Assembly: GCA_022181065.1 (NCBI GenBank) | Contig: BQMY01000096.1 | Location: 1 to 55,354, forward strand | DNA length: 55,354 nucleotides | Origin: Melioribacteraceae bacterium | GTDB taxonomy: Bacteria > Bacteroidota > Ignavibacteria > Ignavibacteriales > Melioribacteraceae | Reading direction: 5' to 3' | Shown: in pieces, positions 1-55,180 of the stretch | Layout of the letters: each line of letters begins with the position of its first letter | Position numbering within the stretch: the stretch's first letter is position 1 | Translations under genes and position numbers: made by a program | Notes under the pieces: model-generated | What the model saw: the letters and a program-made list of their open reading frames with translations, nothing else | Told to the model about the DNA's origin: nothing | Databases searched by the model: none

Positions 1-60
1 CAATTATAACAATCCTATTGAATTTTAAATTCATTTTCTCCCTTAAGTTGACAGCATTGC

Positions 61-232
61 CTTTGAAGGAGGTGGATTCCGACGAATGTCGGAAGACGGA
101 GGATGATTTATTGTGATTTTTGGTCATCCTCCATCACAAAATCCGCCAAAGGCAGAGTGATTTCCCCCTTCAAACCTGTCCAGAACAATTTCTGGAAGGG
201 GGACGAGAAAATCAACCACTAGGTTTTTCAAC
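61..232 (+). repeat. Dispersed intergenic repeat, copy A
   Basis: This stretch matches 11669-11851 and 42210-42394 over nearly its whole length. Shared blocks include GAAGGAGGTGGATTCC, GACGAATGTCGG, GACGGAGGATGATTTATTG, ATCACAAAATCCGCC and ACTAGGTTTTTCAAC. The left part can fold into hairpins (CCGACGAATGTCGG is a dyad), and the right part contains CCCCCTT...AAGGGGG arms. No coding potential is convincing. Compared with copy B, it replaces the CTGTGCGCC...GGCG hairpin with a CCAGAAC...TTCTGG hairpin, so the hairpin is conserved while its sequence changes. Confidence 0.8.
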
Positions 233-269
233 AATGTTAGCCTTTTTTGTTTTTAAGTGATATAACACA

Positions 270-6786: not shown

Positions 6787-6810
6787 CTATCAATTATGTT
6801 AAGATTTTAT

Positions 6811-6878
6811 GTCCCCCTACGCCCAAGGCGCACAGGTTCGAAGGGGGATGCTGACTTAAGTCAGCGGGGGATGACTTC
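6811..6878 (-). repeat. Fragment of the dispersed repeat (right end, inverted)
   Basis: CCCCCTACGCC, GGCGCACAGGTT and GAAGGGGGATG match, in reverse complement, the right-hand hairpin of copies B and C (CCCCCTTCAAA...GGCGTAGGGGG). It continues into CTGACTTAAGTCAG, a perfect dyad not seen in those copies. Only about a third of the element is present. Confidence 0.65.
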
Positions 6879-11621: not shown

Positions 11622-11640
11622 AAGCCGCTTTTACGTGGCT
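11622..11640. repeat. Left 19-bp direct duplication flanking repeat copy B
   Basis: AAGCCGCTTTTACGTGGCT recurs at 11860-11878 with a single change (T to C), in the same orientation. The two copies enclose 219 bases that contain dispersed repeat copy B. Confidence 0.75.
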
Positions 11641-11668
11641 CAGACCGTTGACAAAGTCGTTTCGTTTT

Positions 11669-11851
11669 AAAGTCCTCCTTCGAAGGAGGTGGTTTCCAAC
11701 GAATGTCGGAAGACGGAGGATGATTTATTGCATTTTTTGTGACTTTTGGTCATCCCCCATCACAAAATCCGCCGATGGCGGAGTGATTTCCCCCTTCAAA
11801 CCTGTGCGCCTCAGGCGTAAGGGGGACGTGAAAATCAACAACTAGGTTTTA
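11669..11851 (+). repeat. Dispersed intergenic repeat, copy B
   Basis: About 183 bases matching copies A and C. Blocks in order: AAAGTCCTCC with its complement GAAGGAGG (hairpin), ACGAATGTCGGAAGACGG, GGATGATTTATTGCA, TTGTGACTTTTGGTCATCC, ATCACAAAATCCGCC, CCCCCTTCAAACCTGTGCGC with a complementary AGGCGTAAGGGGG, and ACTAGGTTTT. The 467-base gap 11459-11925 holds this element, its flanking duplication and terminators, and no gene. Confidence 0.8.
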
Positions 11852-11859
11852 AACAAGAT

Positions 11860-11878
11860 AAGCCGCTTTTACGCGGCT
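11860..11878 (-). terminator. Right 19-bp duplication; also a terminator-like hairpin for the RsbW-STAS operon
   Basis: AGCCGC, TTTTAC, GCGGCT forms a perfect six-pair stem about 50 bases downstream of the STAS stop. On the minus strand it is followed by TTATCTTGTTT, a poor but T-rich tail. It is the intact partner of 11622-11640, whose stem has one mismatch. Confidence 0.5.
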
Positions 11879-21413: not shown

Positions 21414-21568
21414 TTGTCATTTCCGGCTTGACCGGAAATCTATTCCTGTGTGCTCTAAGATACCCTTTAATTTGATGTGGCAAAGGGCATGACAAAAAGC
21501 CAGGTTCCTGTGGTTCGAAAAACTTTGTCCTGAGCTTGCCGTAGGGCTCACCAACCGTATCGCCTGTC
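21414..21568. repeat. 155-bp intergenic repeat, first copy
   Basis: This segment matches 21785-21939 without gaps at an offset of 371 bases, with only a handful of base differences. It contains CCGGCTTGACCGG (hairpin), AAGGGCATGACAAAAAGCC, GGTTCCTGTGGTTCGAAAAA and CTTTGTCCTGAGCTTGCCG. After it, the unit CGCCTGTCCC...CGGGGAAGG also recurs near 54816. Translations of this stretch look artificial. Confidence 0.85.
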
Positions 21569-21784
21569 CCTCAACACGGGGAAGGATCGAATGTTGTGGA
21601 GAACCGGCGGCAGTAAAAAACTGGATACCCGCTTGCGCGAGTATGACAATAAGTCTTGTGTCATTCCTGTGTAGACAGGAATCCAGAGATGTAGAATTAT
21701 CGCGATAAAACAATCAGAACCCACCCCCGACCCCTCCCTTTATCAAATGGAGGGGAGTGAAAACATCATAATATGCACTTGAAC

Positions 21785-21939
21785 TTGTCATTTCCGGCTT
21801 GACCGGAAATCTATTCCTGTGTGCTCTAAGATACCCTCTAATTTGATGTGGCAAAGGGCATGACAAAAAGCCAGGTTCCTGTGGTTCGAAAAACTTTGTC
21901 CTGAGCTTGCCGTAGGGCTCACCAACCTTGTCGCCTGTC
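21785..21939. repeat. 155-bp intergenic repeat, second copy
   Basis: This is the second copy of the unit at 21414-21568, same orientation. The 750-base gap 21265-22014 consists of the BlaI-type operator region, these two copies, a spacer with CACCCCCGACCCCTCCC-like low-complexity sequence, and a T9SS gene tail motif; no gene is supported. Confidence 0.85.
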
Positions 21940-22014
21940 TCGCATGCGGGAAAGGCGACTAAGCTCATCAAACTAATTCTTTACTACTTTGCACTAACCA
22001 CTTAGTACTCAGTA

Positions 22015-29351: not shown

Positions 29352-30392
29352 ATGCGAAAAATTCTGATACTCACGGAAGGATTTACTAATCCTCATATGG
29401 CTAAAACTGCCCGAAATCTGCTCATTTACAAACCGGAAGAAGTGGTGGGACTTATAGACTCTACCTATACCGGTGAAAATGGATGTTCACTTCTTGAAAC
29501 AGAAGGGTTTTCACCTGTTTTCTCATCGGTTCAGGATGCTCCATCGGCTGACCACCTCCTGATCGGGATTGCCACTCCGGGGGGCGTACTCCCCGATAAT
29601 CTGCGTAAACACGTTATAGACGCAATCAAAAAAGGAATGAATATTATCTCCGGGTTGCACCACTACCTTTCTGAAGACCCGGAATTTGTCGCGCTCGCAA
29701 AAGAGTATGGCGTAGCACTCAAGGATCTCAGGAAAAACAATTTTAACAAGGTAGTGAACCGAAAGGGAATAAACCCCGCTTCGCTACGCATACAAACTGT
29801 GGGAAACGATTGCAGCCTTGGTAAAATGGTGGTATCGCTCAATGTAACAAATTATCTTCTTGAAAAAGGACTCGACGCGAAGTTTGTTGCTACGGGACAA
29901 ACAGGAATGTTAATTTCTGATGGCGGGCTGCCTGTTGATAATATCAAGGGAGATTATATAAACGGAGCCGCCGAGCATCTTGTACTTGAGAACCAGCATC
30001 ACGATCTGTTGATGATAGAAGGTCAGGGGAGCCTTGTCCATCCGAGGTATTCATCGGTTACACTCGGATTGCTGCATGGTGCCCAGCCCCACGCCCTGAT
30101 AATGTGCTATGAACTTGGCAGAGAATTTATACATGGTGTTGAGGGATTCCGAATACCTGATATGGATGTTGTCATCGATATTTACCTTAAAATGGCAAAC
30201 ATTATGTTTCCTTGTGAGCTGATCGGGTTTGCCATAAATTCGAGAAAAAAAACTGTAAAGGAAGCTGATATCGAACGAAAAAAAATGAGAGAACGTTACG
30301 GTTTGCCTGTTTGTGATGTAGTGCGGCACGGTCCGGAAGAACTTGGTGACGCTGTAATAGAATTTAACAATCGGTTCAGATCATCTCTCTAA
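29352..30392 (+). CDS. DUF1611 family protein (DgcN-like)
   Basis: A 346-residue cytosolic protein. The N-terminal domain (about 1-125) contains TEGFTNPHMAKTARNLLIY and a GIATPGGVLP turn. The C-terminal P-loop-like domain begins around GNDCSLGKMVVSLN and includes FVATGQTGMLISDGG, EGQGSLVHPRYSSVTLGLLHG. The family includes DgcN, reported to N-acetylate D-glutamate in a pathway that converts D- to L-glutamate together with the racemase DgcA; no dgcA-like epimerase is adjacent here. The last codons (FRSSL and stop) lie in a 24-base sequence that is duplicated 238 bases downstream. Confidence 0.85.
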   Translation: MRKILILTEGFTNPHMAKTARNLLIYKPEEVVGLIDSTYTGENGCSLLETEGFSPVFSSVQDAPSADHLLIGIATPGGVLPDNLRKHVIDAIKKGMNIISGLHHYLSEDPEFVALAKEYGVALKDLRKNNFNKVVNRKGINPASLRIQTVGNDCSLGKMVVSLNVTNYLLEKGLDAKFVATGQTGMLISDGGLPVDNIKGDYINGAAEHLVLENQHHDLLMIEGQGSLVHPRYSSVTLGLLHGAQPHALIMCYELGREFIHGVEGFRIPDMDVVIDIYLKMANIMFPCELIGFAINSRKKTVKEADIERKKMRERYGLPVCDVVRHGPEELGDAVIEFNNRFRSSL

Positions 30393-30398
30393 AAATTT
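30375..30398. repeat. 24-bp direct duplication, first copy (3' end of the DUF1611 gene)
   Basis: The sequence is identical over 24 bases to 30613-30636, beginning TTCAGATCATCTCTC and ending AAAAATTT. It contains the stop codon of the DUF1611 gene. Confidence 0.9.
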
Positions 30399-30506
30399 TA
30401 ATATTCTTAATTGAATTTCTAAGCTGTTAAAATTTGATTGAGAGAGAAATTACATTGCTCTTGCGGATTGTTTGTTGGAAAATTCCAGAAGTTGTACAAT
30501 CAGCTT

Positions 30507-30570
30507 AAATCATCCTCCGTCTTTCGACTAGCGTCGAAATCCACCTCCTTCAAAAGGAGGACTTTGAAAA
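30507..30570 (-). repeat. Dispersed repeat, diverged inverted copy D
   Basis: In reverse complement this reads CAAAGTCCTCC, TTGAAGGAGGTGGATTTCG, GAAAGACGGAGGATGATTT, matching the first third of copies A-C. Beyond it (toward 30440) weaker similarity continues through AATCCGC and TAATTTC, so a whole diverged element may be present. The 225-base gap 30393-30617 between convergent genes is made of this element and the flanking 24-base duplication. Confidence 0.75.
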
Positions 30571-30612
30571 TAGAAGCACTTCATGACCATGCAGCAAAGC
30601 ACACTAATATCT

Positions 30613-30636
30613 TCAGATCATCTCTCTAAAAATTTG
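30613..30636. repeat. 24-bp direct duplication, second copy (3' end of queG)
   Basis: This is the second copy of the 24-base sequence. Read on the minus strand it supplies the last codons of queG (NLKFLER and its TGA stop). Confidence 0.9.
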
Positions 30637-31529
30637 AGATTCCGTTTTATTCCTTTAAGTCGTGCTCTCTTGAGGGGGCTTTCGGAATATTTTTTTTCGA
30701 ATTGTTTACCCGATAATCCTGCGATATCATCAATTGTGATTGTTGTGCCATGTGCCGGATAAAATCTTGCTTCACTTGTTACCTCGGAAAACTTGTTATT
30801 CCAGGGGCAGACATCCTGACAAACATCGCACCCGAAAGCCCAATTATCAAATTTCTCCGAAAACTCCTCGGGTATTTCGGCTTTGTTTTCAATTGTCAGA
30901 TATGAAATGCATTTATTCGAATCGAGCTGATACGGTTTTAAGGCATCGGTCGGACAAGCATCAATACACGCTGTACAAGAGCCGCAATAATCTGCGACCG
31001 GTTCAAGGTATTCGAAACTTACGTTGCAGATAATGTTCGCGATAAAAAACCAGCTTCCCTTTTCCCGGTTAATAACATTGGTGTTTTTACCCATCCATCC
31101 AAGTCCAGCTTTCACAGCCCAAACTTTATCCATTACCGGACCTGTATCAACATAACCCACAGATTCAAAACCGGGATGATGTGAGGCGAGATTCTCCTGT
31201 AGAATTTTGAGCTTGTCCCACATAATGTAATGATAATCGGTTCCCCAGGCATATCGGGATATTTTTCCACCATCGCCGGAATGTGTTTCGGGAGTATAGT
31301 AAATAAGTCCGAGAGAGATAACACTTTTTGCGTTTTTAAGAAGTCTGGAAACATCAGTACGCTTATCAACATTTCTGGTCATGTAGTCCATACCTGCATG
31401 AAAATCATTATCGAGCCATTCGCGCAACTTTTTGGTCTCTTCGTATAATGGTTCAGCAGGCGCGAACCCCACCAGGTCAAACCCGAGGCTCTTTGCCTCT
31501 TTCATTACGGTATCGTTGGTCAGAGACAT
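30618..31529 (-). CDS. queG: tRNA epoxyqueuosine(34) reductase QueG
   Basis: A 303-residue enzyme of the last step of queuosine synthesis: reduction of epoxyqueuosine in tRNA by a cobalamin/4Fe-4S enzyme. Visible signatures are RYAWGTDYHY, VDTGPVMDKVWAVKAGLGWMGKN, and two 4Fe-4S motifs CGSCTACIDACPTDAL and CDVCQDVCPWN. It is shorter than E. coli QueG (about 380) because it lacks the C-terminal HEAT-like extension; short forms are usual in Bacteroidota. It lies one base after the Rieske gene stop-start junction, forming an operon. Its final codons come from a duplicated 24-base sequence. Confidence 0.93.
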   Translation of the reverse strand: MSLTNDTVMKEAKSLGFDLVGFAPAEPLYEETKKLREWLDNDFHAGMDYMTRNVDKRTDVSRLLKNAKSVISLGLIYYTPETHSGDGGKISRYAWGTDYHYIMWDKLKILQENLASHHPGFESVGYVDTGPVMDKVWAVKAGLGWMGKNTNVINREKGSWFFIANIICNVSFEYLEPVADYCGSCTACIDACPTDALKPYQLDSNKCISYLTIENKAEIPEEFSEKFDNWAFGCDVCQDVCPWNNKFSEVTSEARFYPAHGTTITIDDIAGLSGKQFEKKYSESPLKRARLKGIKRNLKFLER

Positions 31530-41977: not shown

Positions 41978-42209
41978 GCAAAAACATCTATGTCATTGTC
42001 CCCCGGTAAAATCGGGAGGCATTCAGTTTTTGTTTTTCGTTTTTTACTTAAAATTTACAATCATAGATTAACGACAATAATAGGTGGGTGAGGCGCTCGA
42101 ACCCCCGGAAAAAGCATGATATTAAACGAACCCATCCTATCCGCCTGTGGCGGACTTCCCTTTAGCAAAGGGAAGGACTTTTAACCTTTTGCAAATCTGA
42201 TAGTTTTAT

Positions 42210-42394
42210 AAAGTCCTCCTTAGAAGGAGGTGGATTCCGACGAATGTCGGAAGACGGAGGATGATTTATTGCATTATTTGTGACTTTTAGTCATCCACCA
42301 TCACAAAATCCGTCGATGGCGTAATGATTTCCCCCTTCAAAACCTGTGCGCCTCTGGCGTAGGGGGCGTAAAAATAAACAACCAGGTTTTTCAA
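42210..42394 (+). repeat. Dispersed intergenic repeat, copy C
   Basis: About 185 bases matching copies A and B (AAAGTCCTCC, GACGAATGTCGGAAGACGG, GGATGATTTATTGCA, ATCACAAAATCCG, ACCTGTGCGCCT, AACCAGGTTTTTCAAC). The hairpin arms have decayed slightly. The 489-base gap 41935-42423 also holds the hairpin above, a CCCCCGGTAAAATCGGG stem near 42001, and CCGCCTGTGGCGG near 42140; no gene is present. Confidence 0.8.
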
Positions 42395-42423
42395 CCATCT
42401 CGGAGGAGAACTTCCCCCTTTAT

Positions 42424-54529: not shown

Positions 54530-55180
54530 AAAAAATCATGATTTTGGTTCCTGGTGATTGAACCGTTCAACCCCGCTTTACGGGGCATGCAAAAGCTCAG
54601 GACAAAGTTTATCGAACCACAGGGACCTTTTATTTATCATACCCTCGAATCCGCGTTGGGTAAAGGGTATCCGGTTTTACATCGTAGATTTCCAATCAAG
54701 TTGGAAATGACAATCCTTAAAGTTTGTCATGCTCGACCCCGATCGGGCATCCAGTTTTTGATTTTCTTTTTAGACAGATGACTGGCGACCTACGACCATA
54801 AAAGGTGTCCGAGGCTCTCGCCTGTCCCGCAACGCGGGGAAGACCCGTCAATACCAGCCTCACCCACATTGCCCGGCCCTTCGACGCGGCTCAGGAACCT
54901 TATATTTGTCATGCCCGAGTTTACCCAACTTAGGTGGGCTCGATCGGGCATGCAGTTCTTTAAAATAAAAAGGGATGGTCGGTGACCATCCCCTACGAAA
55001 ATATTTATGTTTTCCTTCGTAAAGACGCACTATGGTTCCCCGTGAGCGGGGGTACGCCTCTACGTTTAACTGTCGACCGCCCTTCGACCATGCTCAGGAA
55101 CCGTCGACTTAATAGTCTCAACTTTGTACTAACCACTTAGTACTCAGTACTATTTTATTTCATCAACATCATTTCATATA
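54530..55180. repeat. Mosaic of intergenic repeat units, no gene
   Basis: A run of short hairpin units shared with other gaps: CTCAGGACAAAG with TATCGAACC (as at 21516-21540, inverted), CCTGTCCCGCAACGCGGGG (as at 21562), two CATGC...GATCGGGCATGC/CCAG units, GGCCCTTCGACGCGGCTCAGG and CCCTTCGACCATGCTCAGG. Translation gives only low-complexity frames. The 901-base stretch from 54454 to the window end has no supported gene. Confidence 0.75.
55131..55180 (-). pseudogene. Relic of a T9SS gene tail
   Basis: ACTAACCACTTAGTACTCAG and TACTATTT are shared with 21991-22020, which immediately follows the stop of the large T9SS gene. Next to them, on the minus strand, the sequence reads YEMMLMK and a stop, the typical last residues of T9SS sorting domains. 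The rest of the domain is missing. Confidence 0.55.

Follow-up and report, generated by a model that had tools for sequence, protein, structure and literature searches.

How do two convergent genes come to end in the same 24 bases, with 214 bp of other DNA between the two copies? This arrangement lies in the window analysed here, a stretch of 55,354 nucleotides that forms contig C96 of a Melioribacteraceae genome (4.90 Mb in 164 contigs). The features at the site are as follows.

29352–30392, forward strand: DUF1611 gene, 346 aa (Pfam DUF1611, E 4.1e-61), with its stop inside the left repeat copy.
30375–30398, no strand assigned: left copy of the 24-bp direct repeat, encoding the last residues and the stop of DUF1611.
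30399–30612, reverse strand: 214-bp insert with a decayed MITE copy in reverse orientation.
30498–30554, reverse strand: recognisable MITE core within the insert, 86% identical to the copy at 62–118.
30613–30636, no strand assigned: right copy of the 24-bp direct repeat, encoding the last residues and the stop of queG on the minus strand; native to queG as judged by orthologue C-termini.
30618–31529, reverse strand: queG, epoxyqueuosine reductase, 303 aa (Fer4_16 and QueG_DUF1730), with its stop inside the right repeat copy.

A preliminary description of this DNA had proposed that a mobile element was inserted here with a long target duplication that left both genes intact. Sequence and gene calls confirmed its starting observations: the two copies of the 24-mer (TTCAGATCATCTCTCTAAAAATTT) are identical at 24/24 positions, start 238 bp apart and end DUF1611 and queG, respectively; a single copy would make the two gene tails overlap, by 13 bases as read from the sequence; and the insert does contain a diverged repeat of the family, namely the core listed above. 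Estimated from base composition, the chance expectation for such a 24-mer is far below 1e-5. Exact 20-mers recur within 600 bp at two places only in the whole window, the focal site and 21414/21785. The latter belongs to a 160-bp direct repeat (21414–21573 and 21785–21944), whose copies are 97% identical, lie at a distance of 371 bp and also match 54593–54628 in inverted orientation.

We then compared the gene ends with those of relatives, the nearest of which by queG are Ignavibacteriales and Melioribacteraceae (25 listed, 55–62% identical). QueG stops within 8 residues of the alignment end in 23 of the 25 relatives listed, and a motif RNAxFL lies near its end in 21 of them, where the focal protein reads RNLKFLER. 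Because the orthologue C-termini end alike, the right, queG-side copy appears to be native queG coding sequence. For two of three solved DUF1611 relatives, the alignment reaches residue 336 or 337 of 346, which places the DUF1611-side copy in a variable tail. DUF1611 lay near queG in none of 109 loci of relatives, for which about 1.5 kb (29 loci) or up to 4 kb (80 loci) of flanking DNA was read; a separate search covered 57 relatives, none from the same genus.

The focal insert was read against its repeat family, to which the preliminary description had linked it. Pattern searches of the genome allowing up to three mismatches returned 65 matches to the 5' end and 40 to the 3' end, a few of which are not the element, while controls returned none. 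Two sequence searches scored 40 of 182 and 40 of 177 candidates. After duplicate removal there were 93 family places of at least 80 aligned bases each; 41 of them form the intact set (both ends matching at 11/16 or better, away from contig edges), and the other 52 were excluded for an eroded end or a contig edge. The consensus runs from CAGTCTGTTGACAAAGTCGTTTCG to GGTTTTTCAACAATCTC. With a length of 189–243 bp in the intact copies (MITEs being shorter than about 1 kb), no coding capacity, many copies, unequal terminal inverted repeats (CAGTCTGTTGACAAAG and GAGATTGTTGAAAAAC) and target duplications, the family has the properties of a MITE. Among 164 genomes of the order it was found in this one only; plasmids gave no match, nor did viral contigs for one exact core pattern, and Rfam returned no match in the window at gathering score. 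Besides the focal copy, the window holds the following.

10–238, forward strand: MITE copy close to the contig start, 5' end eroded.
6804–6848, reverse strand: fragment, 3' part of the MITE.
11622–11640, no strand assigned: left copy of a duplicated terminator-like hairpin, AAGCCGCTTTTACGTGGCT.
11641–11859, forward strand: intact MITE copy, 219 bp, with ends CAGACCGTTGACAAAG and TTTTAAACAAGAT.
11860–11878, no strand assigned: right copy of the duplicated terminator-like hairpin, AAGCCGCTTTTACGCGGCT.
42182–42401, forward strand: MITE copy with intact 3' end and eroded 5' end, without a detectable direct repeat.

The copy at 11641–11859, to which the focal insert had been compared, turned out to be a textbook case, with a flanking repeat of 18/19 that forms an AGCCGC..GCGGCT hairpin. 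To score such repeats across the genome (match +1, mismatch –2), we used mispaired flanks as the null. Flanking direct repeats scoring at least 11 were present in 28 of 41 intact copies and repeats scoring at least 9 in 31 of 41, compared to none of 322 mispaired controls at the higher threshold and none that reached even 9. A lack of duplications at other copies, which would have spoken against the earlier proposal, was not observed, and the idea of insertion with a long target duplication holds for the family. The 28 strong repeats are 15–30 bp long and include perfect or near-perfect cases such as L003 (29/29, AGCCGGAATATCTTTTTGATACTCCGGCA), L029 (29/30, ACCCTCACTCAAAGATACATGAGTGAGGGT), L012 (23/23) and L072 (22/22). 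Repeat identity does not follow element identity (rho 0.08, n=31). In thirteen intact copies no repeat reaches 11, though diverged hairpins lie on both sides of some of these (L015, L079, L231, L204). Among the excluded places, tested apart in wider windows that take in 30 element bases, 10 of 43 reached this score, compared to 14 of 602 in the null. Two copies, L199 (about 572–608 and 811–847) and L208 (about 525–563 and 789–827), carry longer direct repeats of 37 and 39 bp, which extend past the hairpin into sequence like the element's right end; flank and element end look fused here, perhaps, at a guess, by gene conversion.

The duplicated sequences are palindromic. Within a copy, the two hairpins have arms and loops in common (up to 29/29 and 29/30), whereas those of different copies are unlike. 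A stem of at least 5 lies within 29 of the 31 repeats scoring at least 9; as 40% of random 30-mers also hold one, hairpin presence alone is weak evidence, and position at the element edge is stronger. Of the 41 copies, 30 have a stem of at least 6 directly at the left edge, 30 at the right edge and 22 at both, while control windows 84 bp further out contained 3 and 3. Base composition is skewed next to these stems, with 53% A in the 8 bases that precede the left one and 55% T in the 8 that follow the right one. Repeat length correlated with hairpin span at 0.35 in this genome, where the simple stem finder tends to choose an adjacent stem. With a simple frame finder, 39 copies could be classed on both sides (16 between convergent, 21 between tandem and 2 between divergent genes), two more have a gene on one side only, and gene 3' ends account for 55 of 80 classed sides. 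The flanking hairpins thus bear the marks of intrinsic terminators and would be expected to end transcription.

Seen against the family, the focal 24-bp duplication is an untypical case of its behaviour. It had been put forward as the clearest sign of insertion, a rank that it loses to 11622–11878, the clear case in this window: the focal hairpin is weak, and on the queG side, which is the 5' side of the element, a gap of about 18 bp separates the recognisable end of the MITE from the repeat. On the 3' side, towards DUF1611, the element can be aligned to end either inside or at the repeat, with no confident placement. The repeat itself forms at best a weak, imperfect stem, TTCAGAT/ATTTGAG, beginning at its first base; the stem score is 5–6 (6 in the right copy), a value that random sequence often reaches. 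A duplicated hairpin abutting both element ends, as in ISBspe1-like elements, is accordingly not seen at this site. With a match below the 80-base limit, the focal copy is outside the 93 tabulated places, and in the genome-wide search (40 of 177 candidates scored) the core alone, about 60 bases, recurs elsewhere, the rest of the insert having no other match in its own genome at E ≤ 1 among the 40 of 177 first-look candidates scored.

The 24-bp repeat may, in turn, have nothing to do with the MITE: 24 bp from the end of queG could have been copied onto the end of DUF1611 by templated repair or gene conversion, or the 214 bp could stem from some other insertion, the core being there by chance. 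We give this explanation a chance only just short of even. It would account for a repeat that is 24/24 identical around an insert decayed beyond recognition outside its core of about 60 bp, that shows no evident palindrome and that does not abut the queG-side element end, and L199 and L208, whose long repeats resemble gene conversion between flanks, provide a parallel. Conversely, the insert length of 214 bp falls within the range of intact copies, the family duplicates 15–30 bp elsewhere, the repeat begins at the foot of a hairpin, weak and imperfect as it is, and repeat identity is no clock in this MITE family. Since repeat identity does not follow element divergence there, the focal identity is no dating tool, and an argument from element age against repeat identity was dropped for want of a correlation. 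An old, decayed copy lies between the two 24-mers at 30375–30636, where a target duplication broadly like those of the family may once have been made at a weak hairpin, at somewhat less than even probability. Structure-directed insertion at the focal site is thus plausible but unproven, and a separate duplication event is about as likely.

Which enzyme would move such an element? IS1182 genes occur in 26 of 164 genomes of the order. One of them, L269 in genome G002 of the same family, is an intact IS1182 transposase of 481 aa (471.8 bits to NF033551, cut-off 270), whose element ends CAGGTTGTTGAAAAACCC and CAGACTGTTGACAAAGCT match the MITE 3' and 5' ends at 15/18 each, with cross-matches of 13 and 14. 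As each L269 end matches its MITE counterpart, the two elements share their left/right asymmetry, and the MITE has ends like those of an IS with an IS1182 transposase, as befits an IS1182-derived MITE. For 15 other IS1182 elements, one hand-set end each matched the MITE at 9–12 of 17 positions. A hairpin adjoins each end of L269, too, unlike the direct duplications of the MITE, however, these hairpins are inverted at the loop (18/18 inverted versus 14/17 as a direct repeat) and may thus be part of the L269 ends rather than a target copy.

In the genome of the window itself, end patterns, NF033551 and PF05598 revealed no transposase with MITE-like ends among the 164 contigs, several of which end close to element copies. 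The only long IS1182 gene there, L075, was rejected as helper, its element having different ends (AGGGGCTGACTAAAAAG) and its transposase being 27% identical to that of L269. The sequence CAGATTGTTGCAAAAC at the 3' end of the L075 gene was likewise rejected as an element end, as the remnant L062 shows, by eye, the conserved element continuing past it. Of a sample of 395 genomes from the phylum, only G002 itself yielded a transposase closely related to that of L269 (E ≤ 1e-80).

Alternatively, an IS5-type transposase with similar ends (AGNCTGTTGAAAAAGTC), not IS1182, might mobilise the MITE. Several copies of AGNCTGTTGAAAAAGTC-type ends do occur in members of the class (G240, G402 and G405), and the G240 enzyme scores 265.8 bits with IS5 (cut-off 140) and 222.3 with IS1182, below the cut-off of 270. 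The targets, however, are of another kind: two copies of CTAG flank the G240 element, and inspection by eye shows short TAG/TAR-like words, and no evident hairpin, before the ends of G405 and G402. The long palindromic duplication fits ISBspe1-like IS1182 instead, and L269 matches both MITE ends including their difference. The IS5 elements of the class were thus rejected as helpers for their short CTAG/YTAR targets versus the 15–30-bp repeats of the MITE, and this explanation is quite improbable. Separately, the class relatives G290, G302 and G405 have short MITE-like end pairs at L245, L252, L255 and L267. The ends of a pair lie about 130–190 bp apart, their termini resemble AGNCTGTTGAAAAAGTC and their targets are short and TAG/TAR-like; the ends are related to those of the MITE, the target rule is different.

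Turning back to IS1182, we asked how its full-length elements insert. The L269 transposase matched 329 plasmid records, all in the band under 60% identity, and 15 loci from the top 20 rows were read, with 54–60% identity to L269; the five rows passed over are H2 and H5 (of the plasmid type of H4), the Klebsiella rows H9 and H10, and H17, another record of Vibrio penaeicida. In the first batch, a perfect direct repeat of 17–28 bp abuts both element ends (gap 0 or 1) at 12 of 12 loci, the maximum score in the null being 8. In most of these 12, the repeats are A-rich before and T-rich after, and the hairpin span equals the repeat span in 10 of 12; in L303 the hairpin is slightly longer, and in L309 the stem finder picked a neighbour, the repeat AGGGCGCTCTGCGCCCC being itself a hairpin. 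Two of three further loci agree, giving 14 of 15 with a duplication of the whole hairpin. At L319, counted as a miss, the hairpins on the two sides differ and the transposase match is split in two. The hairpin loops have the same orientation in both copies, so the repeats are duplications and not inverted ends.

Empty sites with a single hairpin were found for three plasmid IS loci, that is, for IS relatives rather than for the MITE itself. At a Bacillus plasmid locus, five of five records without the IS have one ACAGCAATTAAATTGCTGT hairpin and the filled record that was read has two copies around the IS: nothing was lost and exactly one hairpin was gained. For Rhizobium anhuiense (L314) and Salinivibrio kushneri (L315), there is one hairpin of slightly different sequence where relatives have the IS and two; a further Salinivibrio record, L316, has a different downstream gene. 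It is scarcely credible, then, that no insertion took place and that the flanking hairpins are independently evolved or selected terminators around a structured RNA, as the element's wealth of internal hairpins and its intergenic location might suggest, given that the hairpins are alike within a copy and different between copies, that mispaired flanks never score 9 and that relatives of the plasmid IS have empty sites with one hairpin.

Whole-hairpin duplication does not extend to all IS1182 elements. Within the order, the inner ends of 19 loci were considered, of which 14 were testable and 5 lacked a flank; L280, L284 and L288 were dropped, as no end motif could be set. Both flanks could be read at 13 IS1182 loci of the order besides L269, and none of these has a direct repeat of the whole hairpin (best score 7); this behaviour thus belongs to a branch of the family. 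In three of these relatives, the arms of an inverted repeat enclose the IS1182 element (scores 15 for L281, 12 for L273 and 10 for L279), which looks as though it had entered a hairpin loop.

The closest known parallel is the ISBspe1-like IS1182 on pBpOF4-01 (L300, annotated as ISBspe1 family), with ends CAGGCTGTTGAGAAAG and CAGATTGTTGAGAAAC that resemble those of the MITE. It lies between gene 3' ends and has its whole hairpin directly duplicated (20/20), as for the MITE; it is, however, a full IS of about 1.5–1.6 kb with a transposase, whereas the window element is a non-coding MITE. Terminator-like hairpins as targets and direct duplication of the whole hairpin, both typical of ISBspe1-like elements, are found in the MITE of this genome as well as in the plasmid relatives. 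We consider it highly probable that the repeat family is a non-autonomous IS1182-type MITE that is inserted, by a transposase acting in trans, at intrinsic-terminator hairpins and duplicates the whole hairpin on insertion. The helper would probably be an IS of the L269/ISBspe1 group, one not found in the genome itself.

Mechanistically, the transposase would join the element at the two feet of a terminator hairpin, and with both feet joined, gap repair would copy the entire hairpin to both sides, leaving the genes on either side intact. What the enzyme recognises is presumably a cruciform or hairpin, and strand transfer probably takes place at the 5' feet. On this model the left hairpin would retain only the A-tract and the right one only the T-tract. 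We infer from this placement that each hairpin would end transcripts leaving the element, while the neighbours read in; the duplicated hairpins would then be working terminators.

Palindrome targeting by IS1182 is already known: Siguier et al., as cited by others, reportedly stated in 2015 that some IS1182 members target palindromes, and a table of theirs is said to list IS1182 duplications of 0–60 bp. According to the portions of the literature available, IS1272 and TnSha1 of staphylococci, both of the IS1182 family, target terminator hairpins by structure and without sequence preference (PMC4923244, PMC5678879). These elements are described there as deleting or replacing the hairpin with no duplication, whereas the MITE duplicates it (PMC4923244, PMC5678879). 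Stem-loop replacement of the IS1272 kind does not describe our family, in which hairpins stand at both edges in 22 of 41 copies and strong repeats flank 28 of 41. Joining at the 5' feet of both stem-loops, with whole duplication, is drawn in the legend of Fig. 13 of PMC5678879 (2017) only as a possible pathway b, and the MITE and the plasmid IS loci show the footprint of that pathway. REP-targeting insertion sequences likewise insert at extragenic palindromes, but these are, in the excerpt available, REP elements rather than terminators (PMC1525189). BOX, RUP and SPRITE of pneumococcus and BrickBuilt of Porphyromonas are small intergenic MITE-like repeats, some of them near terminators or gene 3' ends, for which, unlike for the window MITE, the accessible parts of the sources describe no whole-terminator duplication; the length of BrickBuilt duplications, by the same excerpts, is not constant among copies, and one of four lacks a duplication (PMC3049150, PMC4596501). 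Among the matches listed from open-licence PMC texts, seen in extracts, none describes IS1182 elements that duplicate whole terminators, with empty sites to match, or such a MITE in Ignavibacteriales.

In most DDE transposons, the target duplication is short and constant in length. Here, the duplication is the whole target hairpin, 17–28 bp for the plasmid IS and 15–30 bp for the MITE, across Bacillota, Pseudomonadota and Ignavibacteriales, which provides natural evidence for structure-directed strand transfer at both stem-loop feet, a possibility drawn earlier next to the hairpin-deleting IS1272. It also amounts to a simple safe-site strategy: by inserting at a terminator and copying it, the element lets coding ends and outward-facing terminators survive. 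On balance we favour, with moderate confidence, a broader view in which this IS1182 branch picks terminators by hairpin shape and cuts both 5' feet, so that the target hairpin and not a fixed enzyme stagger sets the duplication length; IS and MITE alike would lead a near-harmless life in 3' untranslated regions, read into by their neighbours and multiplying terminators across genomes.

Several minor features of the family were recorded on the way. A CCTGTGCGCCTCAGGCGT palindrome lies in the loop of a CCCCCTTCAAA/AGGGGG hairpin in many copies among L001–L030 and is absent from L021, L022, L028 and L029; in L204, one of the duplicated terminator hairpins has CCGCCGCGGCGG in its loop. Close to contig ends (L008, L016, L017, L026, L066, L070, L071, L074 and L080), other insertion sequences appear to interrupt MITE copies. 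Their ends carry GTCCTGAAATAGGTTGAC or GGCAATGCTGTCAACTTAAG and similar sequences, several are located at the loop of the MITE CCCCCTT hairpin, and the assembly breaks there. Finally, the family core forms tandem arrays at C116:48270–49757 and C142:6837–7764 of the same genome (G000), and end-like sequence forms another at C97:38157–39201.
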